From contig JAHVJD010000002.1 in the NCBI GenBank assembly GCA_019801415.1, positions 434,001 to 498,000 of the forward strand: 64,000 nt of DNA, in the 5' to 3' direction. The position numbers were made by a program, and so were the translations under genes. Source of the DNA: Nocardioides marinus (GTDB lineage Bacteria; Pseudomonadota; Alphaproteobacteria; Rhodobacterales; Rhodobacteraceae). Shown here in pieces: positions 54,857 to 64,000 of the stretch (positions within the stretch are counted from its first letter, which is position 1; every line of letters begins with the position of its first letter). A model generated the notes under the pieces. That model ran no database searches. It saw only the letters and a list, made by a program, of their open reading frames with translations, and was not told where the DNA came from.

Positions 54857-56305
54857 TCAGATACTCAGGCAGCAGTATTTCAGTTCGAGGTAATCCTCGA
54901 TCCCGTATTTCGAGCCTTCCCGGCCCAGACCGGACAGCTTGACGCCGCCGAACGGCGCCACTTCGGTGGAGATCAAGCCCGTGTTGACACCCACCATTCC
55001 GTACTCAAGCCCCTCCATCATCTTGTAGATGCGGCTCAAGTCGCGGCTGTACAGATAGGACGCGAGGCCAAACTCGGTGTCGTTGGCCGCGGCCAGGACC
55101 TCATCCACCTCCGAGAACCGGAAGACGGGAGCCAGCGGGCCGAAGGTTTCCTCGCGGGCCACCGCCATCTCCTGGGTCACCCCGGTGATCACCGTGGGCT
55201 GAAAGAACGTCCCGCCCAACGCATGTTGCCTGCCTCCGGTCGCGACCTGCCCGCCTTTGGCGACGGCATCGCTGATGTGCTCGTTCACTTTGCTCACAGC
55301 GGACGCGCTGATCAGCGGCCCGATGGCGGTTCCTTCGGCGAAACCGTCGCCAACCGGCAGAGCCTTCACCGCGGCACAGAGTTTTTCCACGAAGGCGTCG
55401 TGGACAGCATCCTGCACGTAGATCCGGTTGGTGCACACGCAGGTCTGGCCGGCATTGCGAAACTTAGAGATCAGCGCGCCTTCGACCGCGGCATCCAGAT
55501 CGGCGTCGTCGAACACGATGAAGGGGGCGTTGCCGCCCAGCTCCAGAGACAGCTTCTTGATCTGCGCGGCCCCCTGGCGCATCAGGATGCTGCCGACGTT
55601 GGTAGACCCGGTGAAACTGATCTTCTGCATCGCCGGGTTTTCGCAGAACTCCAGGCCGATCCCCTTGCTGTCGGTTGACGGCAGCACCGAGAAGACGCCC
55701 GCGGGAAGTCCCGCTTCCTCGCCCAGCCGGGCTATGGCCAGGGCCGACAGCGGCGTTTCGCTGGCGGGGCGCACCACCATGGCACACCCGGCCGCCAGTG
55801 CCGGACCTGCCTTGCGCGTGATCATCGCGTTGGGGAAGTTCCAGGGCGTGATGGCCCCGACCACACCGACCGGCTGCTTCATCACCAGGATCCGCTTGTC
55901 CCGCTGATGGCCGGGAATGGTGTCGCCATAGATCCGCTTGGCCTCCTCCGCGAACCATTCGATGAAGCTGGCGCCATACATGATCTCGCCTTTGGCTTCG
56001 GCCAGCGGCTTGCCCATCTCGGCGGTGAGGATGGCGGCCAGATCATCGGCATGGGCGACCATGAGATCGAACCACCGGCGCAGAACCGCGGCGCGCTCCT
56101 TGCCGGTCCACTTGGCCCAGTCCCGCTGGGCAACACTGGCAGCCGCGATGGCGGCCCTGGCGTCGTCGACGGTGCAATCGGCCACATTGGCCAGCACCGC
56201 GCCGGTCGAGGGGTTGAGCACCTGGAACCGACTGTCGCGGGCCAGCCATTCGCCGTTCACATAGGCATCCTGCAACAGCAGATCGGGACGGGAGAGAGAG
56301 AGCAC
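54857..56305 (-). CDS. gabD: NAD(P)-dependent succinate-semialdehyde dehydrogenase
   Basis: Oxidises succinic semialdehyde to succinate. The 482-residue aldehyde dehydrogenase has WNFPNAMITRKAGPALAAGC, the general-base Glu in LELGGNAPFIVFDDADLDAA and the catalytic Cys in NAGQTCVCTNRIY, the GabD subtype. The start is GTG at 56305 (MLSLSRPDLLLQDAYVNGEW), with AGGAG eight bases upstream; no ATG is suitable. It is last in the minus-strand catabolic operon and corresponds to the final step (TgnE) of trigonelline degradation. Confidence 0.93.
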   Translation of the reverse strand: MLSLSRPDLLLQDAYVNGEWLARDSRFQVLNPSTGAVLANVADCTVDDARAAIAAASVAQRDWAKWTGKERAAVLRRWFDLMVAHADDLAAILTAEMGKPLAEAKGEIMYGASFIEWFAEEAKRIYGDTIPGHQRDKRILVMKQPVGVVGAITPWNFPNAMITRKAGPALAAGCAMVVRPASETPLSALAIARLGEEAGLPAGVFSVLPSTDSKGIGLEFCENPAMQKISFTGSTNVGSILMRQGAAQIKKLSLELGGNAPFIVFDDADLDAAVEGALISKFRNAGQTCVCTNRIYVQDAVHDAFVEKLCAAVKALPVGDGFAEGTAIGPLISASAVSKVNEHISDAVAKGGQVATGGRQHALGGTFFQPTVITGVTQEMAVAREETFGPLAPVFRFSEVDEVLAAANDTEFGLASYLYSRDLSRIYKMMEGLEYGMVGVNTGLISTEVAPFGGVKLSGLGREGSKYGIEDYLELKYCCLSI

Positions 56306-56376
56306 TTGCAAAACTCCTGTGCGGTAGAATTGGGGGCGAGCTGTCCCGCCCCCTGTTTGACGTTGGCTTGCGCCGA

Positions 56377-58047
56377 TCAGGCGTGCAGATCCTGGTTGAG
56401 GGAAGTGCCATCCGGAGCCTGCTCCGGGCTGCTCGTCACGGCGGCCGGATCTTCCATCAGCGACTTGATCACGCCCCAGGCCATCATCACCACCAGCACC
56501 GAGATCGGCAGGGCGGCCGCAATCGCTGCGGTCTGCAGCGCCGACAGCCCGCCGGCCAGCAGCAGCACGGCGGCAACCAGCCCCTGGGCCGCGCCCCAGA
56601 CCACACGGTGCAGTTTGGGAGGATGCGCATTGCCCATCGACAGGATGGTGGTCACCACCAGGGTGCCGGAATCGGAGCTGGTGATGAACCAGGTGGCAAG
56701 CAGGAAGGTGGTGAGGGCAGAGATGACCCAAGCCAGCGTCCCGCCATCTGCCAGCAGGTCGATGGTGCCGAACAGGGTACCGCCCAGGTTCCAGCTGTTG
56801 ACCATATCCACCAAGCCCGCGGTTCCGACGCCGCCTTCGGCATTGAGTTCAAGGAACAACGCGCTGCCGCCGAACACCGAGATCCAGATGAAGGCCATCG
56901 AGGTTGGAACCAGCATGGCGCCGAACATGAACTCGCGGATGGTCCGGCCCTTGGAGATGCGGGCGATGAACATGCCGACGAAGGGCGCCCAGCTCAGCCA
57001 CCAGCCCCAGTAGAAGATGGTCCAGCCCCCCTGCCAGGCGACGTCGCCCGGCGTGGAAGCGGTCCAGAACCCCATCGACAGGAACTGGGTCAGGTAGTCC
57101 CCGGTTGCATTGAGCAGGAAGCCAGCCAGCCATTGGGTGGGGCCTGCGAAGACAAAGAAGAGGATGAGGGCGATGGTCAGCACGACATTCCATTCCGACA
57201 GGATCTTGATACCCCTGCCAATGCCGGAGACCGCCGACAGCGTCGCAATGACCGAGATGATGACGATCAGCGCGACCTGGGTGCCCACGCCCGGATCGAT
57301 CCCGAACAGCACGTTCATGCCATGCGCCATCTGGGTCACTCCAAGCCCCATCGAGGTGGCGATGCCGAACACCGTGCCAAAGACTGCCAGCAGATCGACG
57401 GCGTGACCGGCCGGACCATAGATCCGCTGGCCAAGGACCGGATACAGCGCCGAGCGGAAGGTCAGCGGCAGCTTTTTACGAAAGGCAAAATAGCCGAGGG
57501 CCAGACCGGTCAGCGTATAGATCGCCCACCCATGCAGCCCCCAGTGAAAGTTGGTCACCCGCACGGCGTCTGCCGCGCGCTGCACATCCATCTCGGTGTG
57601 GCCCGCCGCATCCGCGAAGGGGTTGTTGGGATACCCCCACCCCGCCGAATTGTCGAAGTAGAACAACGGCTCGGCAACGCCAAAGAACATGATGCCGATC
57701 GACACCGATGCGGAAAACAGCATGGCGAACCAGGAAAAACGGCTGAACTCCGGCTTGCTGTCGTCATCGCCGAGGCGGATGGACCCGAACCGGCTGAACA
57801 TCAGGAACAGGCAGGCAGCCAGGATGACGATCACGGTGCTGATGTAATACCAGCTCAGCGCGCCTTCGATCCAGGCGCGAATGCCGCCATAGATGCGGCC
57901 TGCATAATCCACGTTCAGGATCGTGAACACGACAAAGGCAGCCACCATCGCCTTGGACGCGATGCTCATGCCGTTGTGAAGCCCTTTGAAAACCCCTTTG
58001 TCGGAGACCAGCTGGCCTCCCTCTCCTATTTTGTCGTCGCTCGCCAT
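56377..58047 (-). CDS. BCCT family betaine/carnitine/choline transporter
   Basis: A 556-residue inner-membrane transporter with about 12 helices. It has the BCCT signature in the aromatic stretch WGWWLSWAPFVGMFIARISKGRTIREF and GVAEPLFYFDN, TNFHWGLHGWAIY earlier, and a short charged N-terminus (MASDDKIGEGGQ). BCCT carriers take up quaternary-ammonium zwitterions such as glycine betaine, carnitine or proline betaine. Embedded in this enzyme cluster, a pyridinium betaine such as trigonelline is a reasonable substrate. It lies between the two dehydrogenase genes. Confidence 0.93.
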   Translation of the reverse strand: MASDDKIGEGGQLVSDKGVFKGLHNGMSIASKAMVAAFVVFTILNVDYAGRIYGGIRAWIEGALSWYYISTVIVILAACLFLMFSRFGSIRLGDDDSKPEFSRFSWFAMLFSASVSIGIMFFGVAEPLFYFDNSAGWGYPNNPFADAAGHTEMDVQRAADAVRVTNFHWGLHGWAIYTLTGLALGYFAFRKKLPLTFRSALYPVLGQRIYGPAGHAVDLLAVFGTVFGIATSMGLGVTQMAHGMNVLFGIDPGVGTQVALIVIISVIATLSAVSGIGRGIKILSEWNVVLTIALILFFVFAGPTQWLAGFLLNATGDYLTQFLSMGFWTASTPGDVAWQGGWTIFYWGWWLSWAPFVGMFIARISKGRTIREFMFGAMLVPTSMAFIWISVFGGSALFLELNAEGGVGTAGLVDMVNSWNLGGTLFGTIDLLADGGTLAWVISALTTFLLATWFITSSDSGTLVVTTILSMGNAHPPKLHRVVWGAAQGLVAAVLLLAGGLSALQTAAIAAALPISVLVVMMAWGVIKSLMEDPAAVTSSPEQAPDGTSLNQDLHA

Positions 58048-58136
58048 GGTTTCCTCCCTTTGACAATGACTGGGTGACCGGAGGCGCGACAGGCGCCTCC
58101 GGCAAGCAATTTTCTTCTGTTGGGATCAGTCCCGCC

Positions 58137-59600
58137 TTACCGCATCACGAAAGGGTCCGGGATGGGATCGTCGCTGGTGCGCAGCCAGACCGCCTTCAGC
58201 TTGGTGTAATCCAGCACCGCCTGAAGCCCGCCCTCGCGGCCGTGGCCGGACAGGCCGTGACCGCCGAAGGGCGCAATCGGGCTTACCGCGCGATAGGTGT
58301 TGACCCAGACGATGCCCGCCCGGATCTTGCGGATCATCCGATGTGCGCGGGTCAGGTTCTGGGTGAACACGCCCGAGGCGAGGCCAAACGCGGTGTTGTT
58401 TGCGATCTCCACGGCCTCTGCCTCGGTCTCGAAGTCAACCACCGAGAGGACCGGGCCGAAAAACTCGTTCGACAGGCACGGCGCAGTCGGCGCATCGGAG
58501 CAATCCAGCACGGTGGGCGGAAAGAAGTAGCCCTGCCCCTCCGGCACAATGCCGCCCGTGACCAGCCTCGCGCCCGCCTGAAGCGAGGCCTCAATCAGCC
58601 GCACCGCGTGATCGCGCTGCCTCAACGTGCACAAAGGCCCCACCTCGGTGTTCATGTCCTGCGGCATGCCGATCACCACGGCCTCGGCCTTCTCCTTCAG
58701 CCGCTTGAGAAATTCCGCCTTAATCCCTTTCTGGATCACCAGCCGGGATCCCGCGACGCAGCTTTGCCCGGTCGCGGCAAAGATGCCCGAGACCTGGGCA
58801 TTCACGGCGCTTTCGAGATCGGCGTCGTCGAACACGATGAAGGGGGACTTGCCCCCGAGTTCCAACGAGGTGGACGCAAGGTTCTCGGCGGAGTTGCGCA
58901 CGATATGGCGCGCTGTCTCCGGCCCGCCGGTGAAGGCAACATGGGCGACCGATGCATGGCTGGTCAGCGCGGCACCGGCCTGCGGCCCGCCGGTGATGAC
59001 GTTCAGCACACCGGGCGGAAAGCCCGCCTGGTCAAAGATCCGGGCGAATTCCAGCATTGGTGCCGGGGCTTCCTCGGAGGCTTTCAGAACCACCGTACAG
59101 CCTGCTGCCAGTGCCGGGGCGATCTTTACCGCGGACAGGAACAGCTGCGAGTTCCAGGGCACGATCGCGGCCACCACGCCCACCGGTTCACGGCGCAGCC
59201 AGACCTCCATGTCCGGCTTGTCGATCGGCAGATGGGCGCCCTCGATCTTGTCGGCGAGGCCCGCGTAATAGCGATAGTATTCCGCCACATAGGCAATCTG
59301 CGCCGAGGTCTCGCGGATGATCTTCCCGGTATCACGGGTTTCCAGTTCCGCCAACCGCGGAGCGTTCTCCGCCACCAGGTCCGCCAGGCGCATCAGGAGC
59401 TTGCCGCGCTGGGTCGCCGTCATCTCGGCCCAGTCAGGGGAGAAGAACGCAGCCTCCGCCGCCGTTACCGCCCGGTCCACATCCGCCTCGGAGGCCGCGG
59501 GCATCTTTGCCCAGGGCGCGCCCGTGGCGGGGTCGCGACTGTCGAAGGTGGTGTCGGCATCCTCAAATGCGCCACCGATATACTGCTGGAAGGTCTGCAT
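58137..59600 (-). CDS. Aldehyde dehydrogenase family protein (TgnC-like candidate)
   Basis: A 487-residue NAD(P)-dependent aldehyde dehydrogenase. Landmarks are VPWNSQLFLSAVKIAPALAA, general-base Glu in LELGGKSPFIVFDDADLESA, catalytic Cys in ATGQSCVAGSRLVI and the C-terminal PFGGHGLSGHGREGG. It is distinct from the GabD copy in the same cluster. In trigonelline degradation the second dehydrogenase (TgnC) oxidises the ring-cleavage lactol/aldehyde product to a substituted succinate; this gene is the positional and family match. The start MQTFQQYIGGAFED is standard. Confidence 0.9.
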   Translation of the reverse strand: MQTFQQYIGGAFEDADTTFDSRDPATGAPWAKMPAASEADVDRAVTAAEAAFFSPDWAEMTATQRGKLLMRLADLVAENAPRLAELETRDTGKIIRETSAQIAYVAEYYRYYAGLADKIEGAHLPIDKPDMEVWLRREPVGVVAAIVPWNSQLFLSAVKIAPALAAGCTVVLKASEEAPAPMLEFARIFDQAGFPPGVLNVITGGPQAGAALTSHASVAHVAFTGGPETARHIVRNSAENLASTSLELGGKSPFIVFDDADLESAVNAQVSGIFAATGQSCVAGSRLVIQKGIKAEFLKRLKEKAEAVVIGMPQDMNTEVGPLCTLRQRDHAVRLIEASLQAGARLVTGGIVPEGQGYFFPPTVLDCSDAPTAPCLSNEFFGPVLSVVDFETEAEAVEIANNTAFGLASGVFTQNLTRAHRMIRKIRAGIVWVNTYRAVSPIAPFGGHGLSGHGREGGLQAVLDYTKLKAVWLRTSDDPIPDPFVMR

Positions 59601-59612
59601 TCTCAGGCTCCC

Positions 59613-60650
59613 TTACTGAAACGCGGGCATCACGTGCGCAATGAAACGCTCGAGCGAGGCCTTCTTACGCTCGAAACTCATGCTGCTGTCGATCCAGAAC
59701 GCATATTCATCGTATCCGAGCGACTCGTATGTCTTCAGCCGTTCGATCACAGCTGCCGGTTCCCCGATCACCAGGTCCCGCTCCATCGCCTCGGGTGAGT
59801 AGAACGGATGCGCGGCGATTTCCTCGTCCGACAAGGGGGCGATGAGACCCTGCGAGATGTCCCGCTTGTTCATGAACCACGCGCCGAAGTAGTTGTAGAA
59901 GCGGTTCAGCTCCTCCGCGCCGCGTTTCACATCCGCGGCGCTGTCCGCGACATAGGTGTGCTGCAGCAGCATGATCTTGGGCCGCGGCACGTCGTTGTGC
60001 TTTTCACAGGCCGCGTTGAACTTGCTCATCAGGTCGGCGATTTCCTCGTCGCCCTTCCACAGCGGGGTCACCTGAACGTTGCAGCCATTAGCCACCGCGA
60101 ATTCATGGCTGTTCGGATCGCGGGCCGCGACCCAGATCGGCGGGCCGCCGTCCTGCAACGGCTTGGGCGAGGACGTGGTCTTGGGGAAGGAGTGGAACTC
60201 CCCTTCCTGCGCGTAATCGCCCTGCCACAGCCCCTGCAGTGCCGGGATCAGCTCCCGCATCCGCAGGCCCGCCTCCCAGGCGTCCATCCCGGGCATCATG
60301 CGCTCGTATTCAAAGGAATACGCGCCACGCGCGATACCCAGATCCAGGCGGCCGTCGGTGATGATGTCGGTCATCGCCGCCTCGCCCGCCAGCCGGATCG
60401 GATGCCAGAAGGGCGCAATCACCGTGCCCGTGCCGAGGCGGACATTCTTGGTGTGTCGCGCCGCATCGACGAGGTTCAGGAACGGGTTGGGCGCAATCGT
60501 GAAATTCATCCCATGGTGTTCGCCGGTCCACACCGCGTGCATGCCGCCGTCATCGGCGATTTTGCAAAGCTGGATGAACTCGTCGTAGAGCTGTTTCTGA
60601 TCCTGATCCGCAGAAATCCGCTCCATATGCGCAAAGAGAGAAAATTTCAT
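59613..60650 (-). CDS. LLM-class flavin-dependent monooxygenase (TgnB-like oxygenase component candidate)
   Basis: A 345-residue bacterial-luciferase-fold monooxygenase using reduced flavin supplied by a partner. It shows MKFSLFAHMERISADQDQKQ, AVWTGEHHGMNFTIAPNPF, VRLGTGTVIAPFWHPIRLAGE and GRLDLGIARGAYSFEYERM. Its ATG overlaps the flavin-reductase stop by four bases (ATGA), so oxygenase and reductase are made together, as in two-component systems. The predicted role, oxygenative opening of an N-methylpyridinium ring, comes from cluster context. Confidence 0.9.
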   Translation of the reverse strand: MKFSLFAHMERISADQDQKQLYDEFIQLCKIADDGGMHAVWTGEHHGMNFTIAPNPFLNLVDAARHTKNVRLGTGTVIAPFWHPIRLAGEAAMTDIITDGRLDLGIARGAYSFEYERMMPGMDAWEAGLRMRELIPALQGLWQGDYAQEGEFHSFPKTTSSPKPLQDGGPPIWVAARDPNSHEFAVANGCNVQVTPLWKGDEEIADLMSKFNAACEKHNDVPRPKIMLLQHTYVADSAADVKRGAEELNRFYNYFGAWFMNKRDISQGLIAPLSDEEIAAHPFYSPEAMERDLVIGEPAAVIERLKTYESLGYDEYAFWIDSSMSFERKKASLERFIAHVMPAFQ

Positions 60651-61573
60651 GCCCGCGTGCTCCCTGTCCCCACGGGGCGCACTTGCCCGGTGGTCTGGTT
60701 TCCATAATACACCCCGAAATTGCCGATCCGGCTTTCGTTGGCGAACCGCTCCAGCATGGTGCAGACCGCCGCATCCGCGATGTCCATCAGCGTGGTCTGG
60801 CTGAGCTGGGTAAAGGTGCCCTTGGCCGGGGTGCCCCCGGCAGACTGGCACAGAAACGAAATATGCTGATGTTCTCGCGCTTCGTCTTCGAACACCGAGT
60901 AGATGAACCCCGGCTCCGCTTCGACACCGGTTTCGGCAATCAGCCGGGCCAAGGCCGCGGAGGCTCCCTCCTTGCCGACCCGCGTTTCCGGCAGCGTCAG
61001 CTTGCCAAGGTCATTGCCCATCAGCAGCACCTTGCCCTCATGCTCGATGAGGGCTGAGACAATCAGCTTGGCACCCTGTGTCAGAGCCTCGGCTTCGGCC
61101 GCCGCCGTCACGTAGGCGCCGCGGGCATAGCCCAATCCCGGCGCGGGCGAAGTCTCGAAGGCCTCCACCTGCCCGATCAGGATCAAATGGTCGCCCGCTT
61201 CCACACGTTTGTGCATGGAACAGTCGAACCAGGCTGAAACGCCATCGAATACTGGGCTGCCTTGCGGGCCTTTCTGCCATTGAACGACCGAGAAACGATC
61301 CTCGACCGGCCTTGCAAAAGTGTTGGAGACGTCCTTCTGGTCCTCCGCCAGCACGTTCACGGCAAAGCCGTCGGCCTGCTCGAACGCGGCATAGTTCCTG
61401 GAGGAATTGGCGAGGCACACCAACACCAGTGGCGGCTCCAGCGACACGGAGGTGAAGGAGTTGGCGGTGAAACCGATCGGATTTCCGTCGGGATCATGCG
61501 TTGTCACAACTGTAACGCCGGTCATGAAGGTGCCAAAGGCATTGCGCAGCGCGCGTGGATCGATGTTGCTCAT
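60647..61573 (-). CDS. Flavin reductase fused to a degenerate Nudix-like domain (TgnA-like candidate)
   Basis: A 308-residue protein. Residues about 1-165 form a flavin-reductase-like (split-barrel FMN-binding) domain: FGTFMTGVTVVTTHDPDGNP, IGFTANSFTSVSLEPPLVLV, NYAAFEQADGFAVNVL. Residues about 170-295 look like a Nudix fold (KLIVSALIEHEGKVLL, LPETRVGKEGASAAL, ARLIAETGVEAE), but the catalytic REx2EE core is mostly lost (ARLIAE), so it is more likely regulatory or structural. It is coupled to the LLM gene by ATGA and to the upstream hydrolase gene by another 4 bp overlap. Confidence 0.88.
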   Translation of the reverse strand: MSNIDPRALRNAFGTFMTGVTVVTTHDPDGNPIGFTANSFTSVSLEPPLVLVCLANSSRNYAAFEQADGFAVNVLAEDQKDVSNTFARPVEDRFSVVQWQKGPQGSPVFDGVSAWFDCSMHKRVEAGDHLILIGQVEAFETSPAPGLGYARGAYVTAAAEAEALTQGAKLIVSALIEHEGKVLLMGNDLGKLTLPETRVGKEGASAALARLIAETGVEAEPGFIYSVFEDEAREHQHISFLCQSAGGTPAKGTFTQLSQTTLMDIADAAVCTMLERFANESRIGNFGVYYGNQTTGQVRPVGTGSTRA

Positions 61574-62373
61574 GACAGCTCCTCCTCTGTGTTGAGCCAG
61601 GTCCGCAGGGCGGCGTTCACTTCCTCCGGTGCGGTCAGGTTCACCATGTGGCGGTGGCCTTCGATGACCACTGCCCGCCCGTGGGGCGCAGCATCCGCCA
61701 TGGCCCGCGCCATTTCCGGCGTCGAGTTCGGGTCACCATCACCGGTCAGCGCCAGGAGCGGGCAGCGGATGTCGGAAAACCCGTCCGCATAGGTGCTGTC
61801 ACCGCGCGCAAAGGCGGTATAGGCCGCAGCATAGCCCGCGAGGTTCACCCCCGACAGCCATTCAGCCACCTGCTCCCGGGCAGCCAGGTCGGTCTTGCCT
61901 TCTCCGAACCATCTGGCCAAGGGCGTCTCGAGGTCGAAGCCACCAGCACGGATCAGGGCTGCGCGGGCCTCGACGGCCTCGCGCGCCGCGGGATCCCGGC
62001 GGAAGACCCCGTTCAACAACGCCACGCGAGAGACGTGCGCGGGATGGCAGACGGTATATCCACCGGCGATGAGCGCCCCCATGGAATGGCCCGCCAGCGA
62101 CACGGGCCCCAGATCCAGCTCCGTGAGCACGGCATGAAGCCAGGCCACGTAGTCCGGCAGCTCCGCGCCGTCCGGCAGCAGCCCGCTGCCGCCGTGTCCG
62201 GGCAGATCCAGCGCAATCACCCGATGGGTCTGCGACAGCTGCTCGATCTGCGGCGCCCAGGCCGCAGACTGCATGCCGACACCGTGAAGCAGCACCACAG
62301 GCGCCCCGTCACCGGCCGATTGGCAGGTGACCGGACCAAAGGGATCAGACAGCTGCAGGGTTGTCGACGTCAT
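61570..62373 (-). CDS. Alpha/beta-fold hydrolase (TgnD-like candidate)
   Basis: A 267-residue serine hydrolase: oxyanion motif VVLLHGVGMQSAAW, nucleophile elbow LAGHSMGALIAGG, acid Asp in LALTGDGDPNSTP and His in IEGHRHMVN. In trigonelline catabolism a hydrolase of this fold (TgnD) cleaves the N-methylformamido-methylene succinate to succinic semialdehyde, formate, methylamine and CO2. The gene overlaps the flavin reductase by 4 bp and the DUF1185 gene by 29 bp. The start MTSTTLQLSDPFG was chosen by fold. Confidence 0.88.
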   Translation of the reverse strand: MTSTTLQLSDPFGPVTCQSAGDGAPVVLLHGVGMQSAAWAPQIEQLSQTHRVIALDLPGHGGSGLLPDGAELPDYVAWLHAVLTELDLGPVSLAGHSMGALIAGGYTVCHPAHVSRVALLNGVFRRDPAAREAVEARAALIRAGGFDLETPLARWFGEGKTDLAAREQVAEWLSGVNLAGYAAAYTAFARGDSTYADGFSDIRCPLLALTGDGDPNSTPEMARAMADAAPHGRAVVIEGHRHMVNLTAPEEVNAALRTWLNTEEELS

Positions 62374-62947
62374 GGCCCAGCTCCTTGAGGTCCTGATAGC
62401 GATCGCCGATGCGGTGATGCGGCCGCCCACCAATGGAAGCCCCCAGCGCGATCACGATCTCGTCCGGCCCGGGCGCATCCGCCACGGACAGCTGGATGGT
62501 CAGGTAATGACTGCGCCGCCCGCCGTCGTTCTTGTCCATCAACGGGATTTGCAAGGAAGCGTTGGCCGGGCCACGGGTGTTGGTGAAGGCAAGATAGGAC
62601 TTCGCCCCCACCGCCTCGCGGAAGTGGTTGCCAAAGCGCAGCGTGTGGATCAGGGCGGAGGCGTGCTCGACCTCGCCGTTGACGCCGACGATGGCAGATT
62701 TGCCGTAGCCTTCGACCTTGTCACCGCCACCTGCGGCCTCAAGGATCATCGCCGTCAGCTTCTCTCCCAGCCCGGGTGCGCAGTCATGGATTGCCGGGCG
62801 CAGGTCTTCGACAAACCCCTGCCCCGCCCAGGGGTTTTTGATCACCGCCACCGCGGCAATCATCTTTAGCGGCGTCTCTGCAGCTTTACCGCCCTCGATC
62901 AGGGTCTCTTCAACATGCAGCAACGTTTTGCGGATTTCGGCGGGCAT
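62345..62947 (-). CDS. Amino acid synthesis (DUF1185) family protein
   Basis: A 200-residue protein of the DUF1185 family, called amino acid synthesis protein without proven activity. Conserved-looking parts are MIAAVAVIKNPWAGQGFVED, GKSAIVGVNGEVEHASALIH, TLRFGNHFREAVGAKSYLAF and a C-terminal SIGGRPHHRIGDRY. It is first in the minus-strand operon, directly under the operator-like palindrome. Its step is unassigned: the core trigonelline scheme does not obviously need it, so it may act on an isomer or intermediate. Confidence 0.85.
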   Translation of the reverse strand: MPAEIRKTLLHVEETLIEGGKAAETPLKMIAAVAVIKNPWAGQGFVEDLRPAIHDCAPGLGEKLTAMILEAAGGGDKVEGYGKSAIVGVNGEVEHASALIHTLRFGNHFREAVGAKSYLAFTNTRGPANASLQIPLMDKNDGGRRSHYLTIQLSVADAPGPDEIVIALGASIGGRPHHRIGDRYQDLKELGHDVDNPAAV

Positions 62948-62983
62948 GGCTGAGCCTTTCCTATCTGATTCCAGTTGCCGTCA

Positions 62984-62997
62984 TATGGTATACCATA
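62984..62997. promoter_or_regulatory. Perfect 14 bp palindrome, probable GntR/FCD operator
   Basis: TATGGTATACCATA lies in the 107 bp between the divergent DUF1185 and GntR genes. GntR/FadR-subfamily operators are short palindromes with a GT-N(3-4)-AC core like GGTATACC. Its place suits control of both transcripts by the adjacent regulator. Confidence 0.65.
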
Positions 62998-63054
62998 GGA
63001 CTGCATGTCAACAGACACTTGCCTGAGACCACGGCTGTTGGTATCGACACAGGC

Positions 63055-63744
63055 ATGAGCAAACCCGCCCCCCAGCCCGTAATGACCCGGATCGACCAAC
63101 CTCAGACGCTGCGCTGCATCGTGCAGGAGCGAATGCGCGAGGCGATCATTTCTGGCCAATTCGCCCCCGGCGAACGACTGGTCGAACGCGCGCTCTGCGA
63201 CCAACTGGGCGTCAGCCGAACGGTGGTCCGCGAGACCATCCGCTACCTTGAGGCCGAGGGGCTGGTTGAAATCCTGACGGGCAAAGGGCCGATCGTCGCG
63301 CAGCTCAGCTGGGAGGACGCACGGCAGATCTATGATATCCGTCAGATGCTTGAGACCGCCGCCGCCACCGCCTGCGCCGAAAACATGACACCGCGGCTGG
63401 CAGAAGAACTGAAAGAGGCATTGACGGTGCTGAAAGACGCGGTAGCGGTGGGTGCCCCCGGCCCAATGTTGCGCGCCTCTACCGACTTCTATCGCATCAT
63501 CTTCGAGGGGGCTGGCCATCACGTCGCTTGGGAAATCGCCCAGCGCCTGAACGGTCGCATCAGCCGCCTGCGGGCGGTCACACTGTCGACCGCCGACCGG
63601 CCGAAACCCGGCCCCTCCCACATGGAAGAAATCTGCGAAGCCATCACCTCGGGCAACACGGAAGCTGCCAAAAAGGCCGTCCACGACCATCTGACGGAAA
63701 CAGCCGCCGTTGCCAAACGGGTTCTCACCCAAGAGAAAGCCTGA
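63055..63744 (+). CDS. GntR family transcriptional regulator with FCD effector domain
   Basis: A 229-residue regulator: N-terminal winged helix (about residues 15-85, GERLVERALCDQLGVSRTVV then RETIRYLEAEGLVEI) and a C-terminal all-helical FCD ligand-binding domain with conserved metal/ligand positions (IYDIRQMLE, HHVAWEIAQRLN, HMEEICEAI). It is divergent from the catabolic operon across the palindrome and is presumably its repressor, released by a pathway compound. The ATG at 63055 is used; a TTG at 63019 and an ATG at 63118 in other contexts are less likely starts. Confidence 0.9.
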   Translation: MSKPAPQPVMTRIDQPQTLRCIVQERMREAIISGQFAPGERLVERALCDQLGVSRTVVRETIRYLEAEGLVEILTGKGPIVAQLSWEDARQIYDIRQMLETAAATACAENMTPRLAEELKEALTVLKDAVAVGAPGPMLRASTDFYRIIFEGAGHHVAWEIAQRLNGRISRLRAVTLSTADRPKPGPSHMEEICEAITSGNTEAAKKAVHDHLTETAAVAKRVLTQEKA

Positions 63745-63751
63745 AAAGCCA

Positions 63752-64000
63752 ATGCCCAAAGCCTACTGGATTGCCAATGTGACAGTCACTGACCCCGAGC
63801 GTTACCGGGGGTACCAGGCAATTGCCCCGGCGGCGTTTGCTGAATTCGGCGCGCGCTTCCTGGCAAGAGGTGAAGCGGACACCCTTGAAGGTCGCGCATG
63901 GCAGCGCAGAGTTGTCATCGAATTCGACAGTTTGGACCGCGCCCGCGCCTGCTACGACTCCGCGGCGTACCGGGCCGCGCGCGCCGAGCGTGCCGGTGCC
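63752..64000 (+). CDS. DUF1330 domain protein (partial, runs off the window)
   Basis: The first 83 codons of a small alpha-beta-barrel-type protein: MPKAYWIANVTVTDPERYRG, YQAIAPAAFAEFGARFLARG, RRVVIEFDSLDRARACYDS. These match the DUF1330 family, ferredoxin-like dimers of unknown function often found in catabolic operons. It begins seven bases after the GntR stop on the same strand, so it is probably co-transcribed with the regulator. Only the C-terminal end is missing. Confidence 0.88.
   Translation, partial: MPKAYWIANVTVTDPERYRGYQAIAPAAFAEFGARFLARGEADTLEGRAWQRRVVIEFDSLDRARACYDSAAYRAARAERAGA

Follow-up and report, generated by a model that had tools for sequence, protein, structure and literature searches.

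A probable trigonelline (N-methylnicotinate) catabolic operon with a BCCT-family carrier and a conserved palindrome

Introduction

In Acinetobacter baylyi, trigonelline (N-methylnicotinate), a relative of vitamin B3, is reportedly degraded by the proteins TgnA to TgnF, a pathway whose chemistry is said to have been worked out by Perchat et al. (2018, PNAS) and whose gene cluster is said to be widespread. Here we analyzed a 64,000-nucleotide stretch (the window; G000:C2:434001-498000) of a 3.89 Mb genome, probably that of a marine bacterium of the Roseobacter type, and in it a divergent gene cluster that an initial annotation had read as a trigonelline degradation cluster. The paper on the trigonelline pathway is among the references of PMC8269262 and PMC7913881; as the pathway has been described before, our finding is ordinary but correct. 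What we add is the presence of tgnF in 96 of 97 tgn loci, a conserved TGGTATACCA site upstream of it, and a tgn-linked BCCT carrier in the slot of the NCS1 permease.

Gene content and orthology

We judge the locus to be a trigonelline catabolic operon with a probability of about 0.92, from its likeness in sequence and arrangement to the tgn genes of Acinetobacter. The cluster comprises the following features:

54857..56305, minus strand: GabD-type succinate-semialdehyde dehydrogenase (SSADH), putative TgnE role; start GTG 56305 or TTG 56311
56377..58047, minus strand: BCCT-family carrier (PF02028), candidate trigonelline importer
58137..59600, minus strand: aldehyde dehydrogenase (PF00171), TgnC orthologue, 70% identical to its A. 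baylyi and PK01 counterparts
59613..60650, minus strand: luciferase-like monooxygenase (LLM) family flavin-dependent oxygenase (PF00296), 345 residues, TgnB orthologue in a supported clade
60647..61573, minus strand: flavin reductase (PF01613) with a C-terminal extension, 308 residues, TgnA orthologue
61570..62373, minus strand: alpha/beta hydrolase, TgnD orthologue; ATG 62373 used as start, TTG 62433 an upstream alternative
62345..62947, minus strand: PF06684 (AA_synth, DUF1185) protein, 236 bits, TgnF orthologue
62985..62996, no strand: palindrome ATGGTATACCAT, candidate operator between tgnF and gntR, sole exact copy in the genome
63019..63744, plus strand: GntR/FCD regulator (PF00392 and PF07729); start TTG 63019, ATG 63055 or ATG 63082
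63752..64000, plus strand: DUF1330 small protein (PF07045); start ATG 63752, end 39 bases past the window

The order of transcription on the minus strand is tgnF, tgnD, tgnA, tgnB, tgnC, BCCT and GabD (54857-62947), and the GntR and DUF1330 genes are oriented divergently from this set. Neighboring genes of the operon overlap or lie no more than about 90 bases apart: tgnA and tgnB share four bases (the reductase gene ends at 60647 and the ATG of the LLM gene is at 60650), the PF06684 gene overlaps the hydrolase gene, and no terminator-like sites were found in the gaps flanking the carrier gene. The gene list of the initial annotation held, each gene being an open frame of the stated family, the divergent GntR gene included, as did the overlap that it had noted between the LLM and flavin reductase frames; it had passed over tgnF, the sixth pathway gene, and the DUF1330 gene.

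Compared with the A. baylyi type strain DSM 14961 (L064), the window proteins are 68% (TgnF), ~55-56% (TgnD), 49% (TgnA), 74% (TgnB), 70% (TgnC) and 56% (TgnE) identical, those on the regulator side 51% (GntR) and 50% (DUF1330) identical, and the order F-D-A-B-C is common to both loci. This core order recurs on a plasmid of Acinetobacter sp. PK01, where the annotation names tgnA, tgnB and tgnC and the GntR and DUF1330 genes are likewise divergent; the window TgnA is 50% identical to the PK01 protein over 295 of 308 residues, and TgnB and TgnC again match at 74% and 70%. When the host genome was searched with the A. baylyi hydrolase, which we take to be TgnD from its position, the window gene matched at 56% and the next best at no more than 29%. 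TgnF is the sole PF06684 match in the genome. In the tree of TgnB relatives, the window LLM protein is nested in a 20-row clade (starred) with A. baylyi TgnB (support 100/99), apart from sister clades at 37-53% identity and from one paralogue of its own genome; in total the host genome yields four LLM matches, and of the three paralogues offered to the tree one was admitted, L140 and L143 being absent from it. The orthology with TgnA, TgnB, TgnC and TgnD that the initial annotation had proposed was thus recovered by alignment to the A. baylyi proteins and by the common gene order, and its trigonelline reading is supported by this orthology, the gene order and the TgnB clade.

The two loci differ in their carrier, an NCS1 permease (PF02133) in A. 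baylyi and a BCCT protein in the window. Next to their clusters, A. baylyi and PK01 also have a large sarcosine-oxidase-like gene, to which there is no match in the 19 kb surrounding the cluster of the window. In Acinetobacter the sarcosine-oxidase-like gene block adjoining tgn (L064, 1222-5738; L033, 244-5401) possibly serves methylamine use. Separately, residues 4-303 of the window TgnA match PDB 3rh7 with an E-value of 7e-92; the match spans almost the whole protein and suggests that this entry, deposited as a hypothetical oxidoreductase, is the structure of a TgnA orthologue.

Recurrence in other genomes

In a phylum sample of 398 genomes, the host genome included, LLM relatives at E <= 1e-30 occurred in 23 genomes and PF06684 in 59, and all 23 were among the 59. 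Judging from their coordinates, the distance between the LLM and PF06684 genes is at most about 6 kb in 20 of the 23 genomes and 14-18 kb in G058, G286 and G310. Because the LLM relative occurs in 23/398 genomes and the gene order recurs across classes, in Gammaproteobacteria and Betaproteobacteria, the gene set is more than a chance association.

Gene order was then scored in 97 loci, namely those of 106 fetched whose LLM protein was at least 60% identical (own locus L035 included, the nine below 60% excluded); 80 of the 106 came from a scan of named genomes with the Acinetobacter (PK01) TgnB, in which the 80 best among 559 relatives were kept, so that Acinetobacter and Burkholderiaceae predominate among the rows, which are not independent of one another. 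We called F, GntR and DUF1330 present at >35% identity and carriers at >45%, in each case with a match covering 40% or more of the query. F-D-A-B-C lie on one strand in 81 of the 97 loci, and tgnF is present in all except L131, a contig starting 1.8 kb before tgnB. Eleven of the other 16 loci miss one core frame under these filters (ten read F-D-B-C or F-A-B-C, and the last is L131), the Caballeronia loci L094, L095, L098 and L099 read as other orders because of second copies, and L100 has stray second copies. L094 and L099 each hold two adjoining tgn-type clusters of opposite orientation, whose LLM proteins share 61% and 75% identity with that of the window. GntR was found in 85 of the 97 loci and DUF1330 in 69.

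Four Pseudovibrio loci (L118, L119, L120 and L138) share the gene content of the window cluster, including BCCT and then GabD-type genes (77-78% and 72-73% identical, respectively), and differ in a CMD-family gene, of which no match was seen in the 19 kb fetched at the window. On pSymA of Sinorhizobium meliloti R28 the annotated genes for PF06684, hydrolase, flavin reductase, LLM and aldehyde dehydrogenase proteins stand in the order of the window, together with a GntR gene, and downstream are NIPSNAP and ABC transporter genes where the window has BCCT and GabD. A sister cluster in Agrobacterium fabrum (L231), Mesorhizobium (L232), Shinella (L233), L055 and L056 contains reductase, aldehyde dehydrogenase, LLM (40-42%), hydrolase and PF06684 genes in another order; in Agrobacterium it adjoins a glycine betaine-type ABC transporter, and its substrate is possibly another pyridinium betaine. 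The LLM proteins of L050-L054 and L213-L215, loci of another class, form a clade at 48-53% identity; other tgn-type genes accompany them in varied arrangements, the carrier being an NCS1 permease in L051-L054 and BCCT in L050.

The palindrome and the regulator

The 71-base gap between tgnF and gntR holds TATGGTATACCATA. Of 108 rows, 75 have an exact copy of the core TGGTATACCA within 320 bases upstream of tgnF and 102 have it with no more than one mismatch, compared with 0 exact and 20 at no more than one mismatch among 2160 shuffled controls that kept base composition only; the motif was derived from the window, whose own row matches by construction. The outliers are a Thioclava row with two mismatches and five rows with four. 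These five rows without the site have no GntR match in the fetched stretch; 12 of the 97 loci have no GntR match, several of which retain the site. In the host genome the 12-base palindrome has one exact place, that in the window, and one further place with one mismatch. Since the palindrome is conserved and the rows that lack it have no GntR match, position and conservation point to the divergent GntR protein as a regulator that would bind at the palindrome. The motif also precedes PF06684 in L213-L215.

Proposed pathway and fate of the products

Gene identity, gene order, phylogeny and palindrome conservation were read directly from the data, and the reactions are carried over from the A. 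baylyi pathway. In the proposed scheme, GntR would sit on the tgnF-gntR palindrome until released by the substrate or an intermediate, and the BCCT carrier would import trigonelline. TgnA would then provide reduced flavin for TgnB, which would cleave the C5-C6 bond of the ring, and TgnC would oxidize the resulting aldehyde (recovered in the form of a hydroxylactone). Hydrolysis of the N-formyl enamide by TgnD would yield formate, methylamine, carbon dioxide and succinate semialdehyde, the last of which the GabD-type enzyme, aided by TgnF, would convert to succinate. A formate dehydrogenase above the curated cut-off is encoded in the genome.

The GabD-type dehydrogenase scores 705 bits against the SSADH family TIGR01780, above its cut-off, and is 72-73% identical to the dehydrogenase that follows the same carrier in the four Pseudovibrio loci. 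Its assignment as TgnE is supported by family and position and is not unique.

Several points weigh against the trigonelline reading. With the A. baylyi GabD as query the window gene is best at 56%, and a second genomic GabD reaches 55%; because this second GabD matches nearly as well, the TgnE assignment rests also on position, so that the initial annotation's equation of the GabD-type enzyme with TgnE stands in family and position and not in exclusivity. TgnA (49%) and TgnD (55%) are the least conserved of the F-D-A-B-C core, the A. baylyi comparison was made with the type strain and not with ADP1, and the names tgnA, tgnB and tgnC are those of the PK01 plasmid annotation. In a profile search of the genome, TIGR03105, which presumably covers gamma-glutamylmethylamide synthetase, reached 230 bits at best, its cut-off being 470, and a search for the small subunit of methylamine dehydrogenase (PF02975), whose control was also empty, gave no match; these searches thus lend no support to use of the methylamine nitrogen.

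Alternative explanations

Among the 97 loci, BCCT was found in five, that of the window and four from Pseudovibrio, always directly after tgnC, and an NCS1 permease in 49, directly after tgnC in 48; neither carrier is found in 43 loci and both in none. The window carrier is 77-78% identical to the BCCT proteins after tgnC in Pseudovibrio and 73% identical to that of Thioclava, and these tgn-adjacent carriers form a clade (support 97/98) whose sister group comprises a Leisingera carnitine-operon carrier (63%) and another BCCT of the host genome (58%). This sister group, together with the absence of BCCT from most tgn loci, would fit a carrier of carnitine or glycine betaine that is a mere neighbor of the tgn genes. 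We consider this doubtful, as close relatives stand between tgnC and the GabD gene in the four Pseudovibrio loci and another directly after tgnC on the Thioclava plasmid, all in a supported clade apart from the carnitine-operon carrier, and the same slot is filled by the NCS1 permease elsewhere, with no locus having both. The likeliest reading, judged from position and clade alone, is that BCCT is a recruited carnitine-type carrier that probably imports trigonelline.

The operon might instead open another N-methylpyridinium or pyridine acid, such as homarine or nicotinate, trigonelline not being the main substrate. Because LLM sister clades (37-53%) with similar gene sets exist, which may use other pyridines, the architecture alone does not settle the substrate. 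The window LLM protein, however, falls outside these clades and within that of A. baylyi TgnB (74%), and action of TgnA/TgnB on homarine has been argued to be unlikely for steric reasons (PMC8269262), making another main substrate very unlikely. Ruegeria pomeroyi grows less effectively on homarine than on trigonelline (PMC8269262). On these two points homarine, a candidate that the initial annotation had suggested, is not supported as a substrate, and no characterized homarine gene set is named among the literature matches listed. The annotation's appeal to marine solutes is also weakened, because trigonelline is scarce in sea particles: transect samples contained 1 to 300 pM trigonelline versus 0.6 to 67 nM homarine (PMC8269262).

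That the LLM protein and its reductase form an unrelated two-component monooxygenase of the alkanesulfonate, RutA or dimethylsulfone type, the first two of which the initial annotation had named as groupings that would speak against its own proposal, has LLM superfamily membership alone in its favor and is exceedingly improbable, as the protein scores under the cut-off of all 25 NCBIfam families that it touches (SfnG, 45 bits versus 383) and both tree and gene order put it with TgnB; the RutA or alkanesulfonate type was rejected on these scores and on the clade with A. baylyi TgnB. The Rut pyrimidine pathway, in which RutA is the LLM oxygenase and RutF the reductase, is alike in that a reduced-flavin LLM enzyme opens an N-heterocycle and hydrolytic steps follow. 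It differs in its proteins: the window reductase reaches 98 bits where the RutF cut-off is 255 and the hydrolase 72 bits where the RutD cut-off is 239, and the NCBIfam matches of the window LLM protein include no RutA family.

TgnF and the PF06684 family

PMC7913881, from which we take the name, describes TgnF as a homologue of the DUF1185 protein HcdD that stimulates TgnE-dependent oxidation of succinate semialdehyde in A. baylyi, and reports that no such stimulation was detectable for HcdD. For the PF06684 family, two structures have been described as hexamers with a chorismate-mutase-like fold, and a role in amino acid metabolism was proposed from gene neighbors, according to PMC2954203. 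The AlphaFold model of the window TgnF (mean predicted local distance difference test score, pLDDT, 94) matches just these two family structures at E <= 0.001. TgnF was also considered as a Rid-type protein, a group to which its fold link is weak: PF06684 is its only Pfam match, and in the Foldseek list the Rid protein 9bk9 comes 42nd, with an E-value of 0.09 and TM scores of 0.37 (query) and 0.51 (target). Invariant across 51 PF06684 sequences from all contexts are N38, G42, K83, G88, E94, H95, R110, P135, P159, E163 and R179; by our reading of the alignment, H95 and R179 appear to correspond to His93 and Arg176, which PMC2954203 names as cavity residues.

We surveyed 38 PF06684 loci, three tgn-like (L213-L215) and 35 non-tgn chosen from the PF06684 genome list, classing contexts with protein queries from plasmid records and the window, so that unlike contexts stay unclassed. 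Eighteen of the 35 (L193-L196, L199-L207, L209, L222, L223, L225 and L226) adjoin matches to UPF0280 and to a 6-hydroxynicotinate reductase, a name that is the annotation of the source record and has no Pfam or NCBIfam match behind it; PF06684 sometimes stands twice in tandem there. This neighborhood suggests a role for these PF06684 proteins in nicotinate breakdown. MhpA-like hydroxylase and acetolactate synthase genes accompany PF06684 in three of the 35 loci, and 14 fall in neither group. A nitrogen-specific role is disfavored by the MhpA-type contexts and by the place of HcdD in a coumarin pathway.

Trigonelline and nicotinate breakdown have in common an enamine or 2-formyl dicarboxylate intermediate. 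Because this type of intermediate is common to both pathways, PF06684 proteins, whose family name refers to amino acid synthesis, might be pyridine-catabolism enzymes that act on the product of the ring-opening hydrolases, by deamination of an enamine or by decarboxylation of a 2-formyl dicarboxylate via the invariant lysine. The latter would convert formylsuccinate to succinate semialdehyde in trigonelline breakdown and formylglutarate to glutarate semialdehyde in nicotinate breakdown. We put this forward tentatively, as a proposal that is unlikely as it stands; if true, it would account for the reported stimulation of TgnE.

Discussion

With a locus of this kind recognized, Roseobacter-type genomes can be scored for pyridinium betaine use, and the palindrome and the interchangeable carriers offer handles for finding the regulon and the importer. 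The contexts of TgnF suggest that a misnamed family belongs to pyridine breakdown, and they provide two parallel pathways in which it may be assayed.

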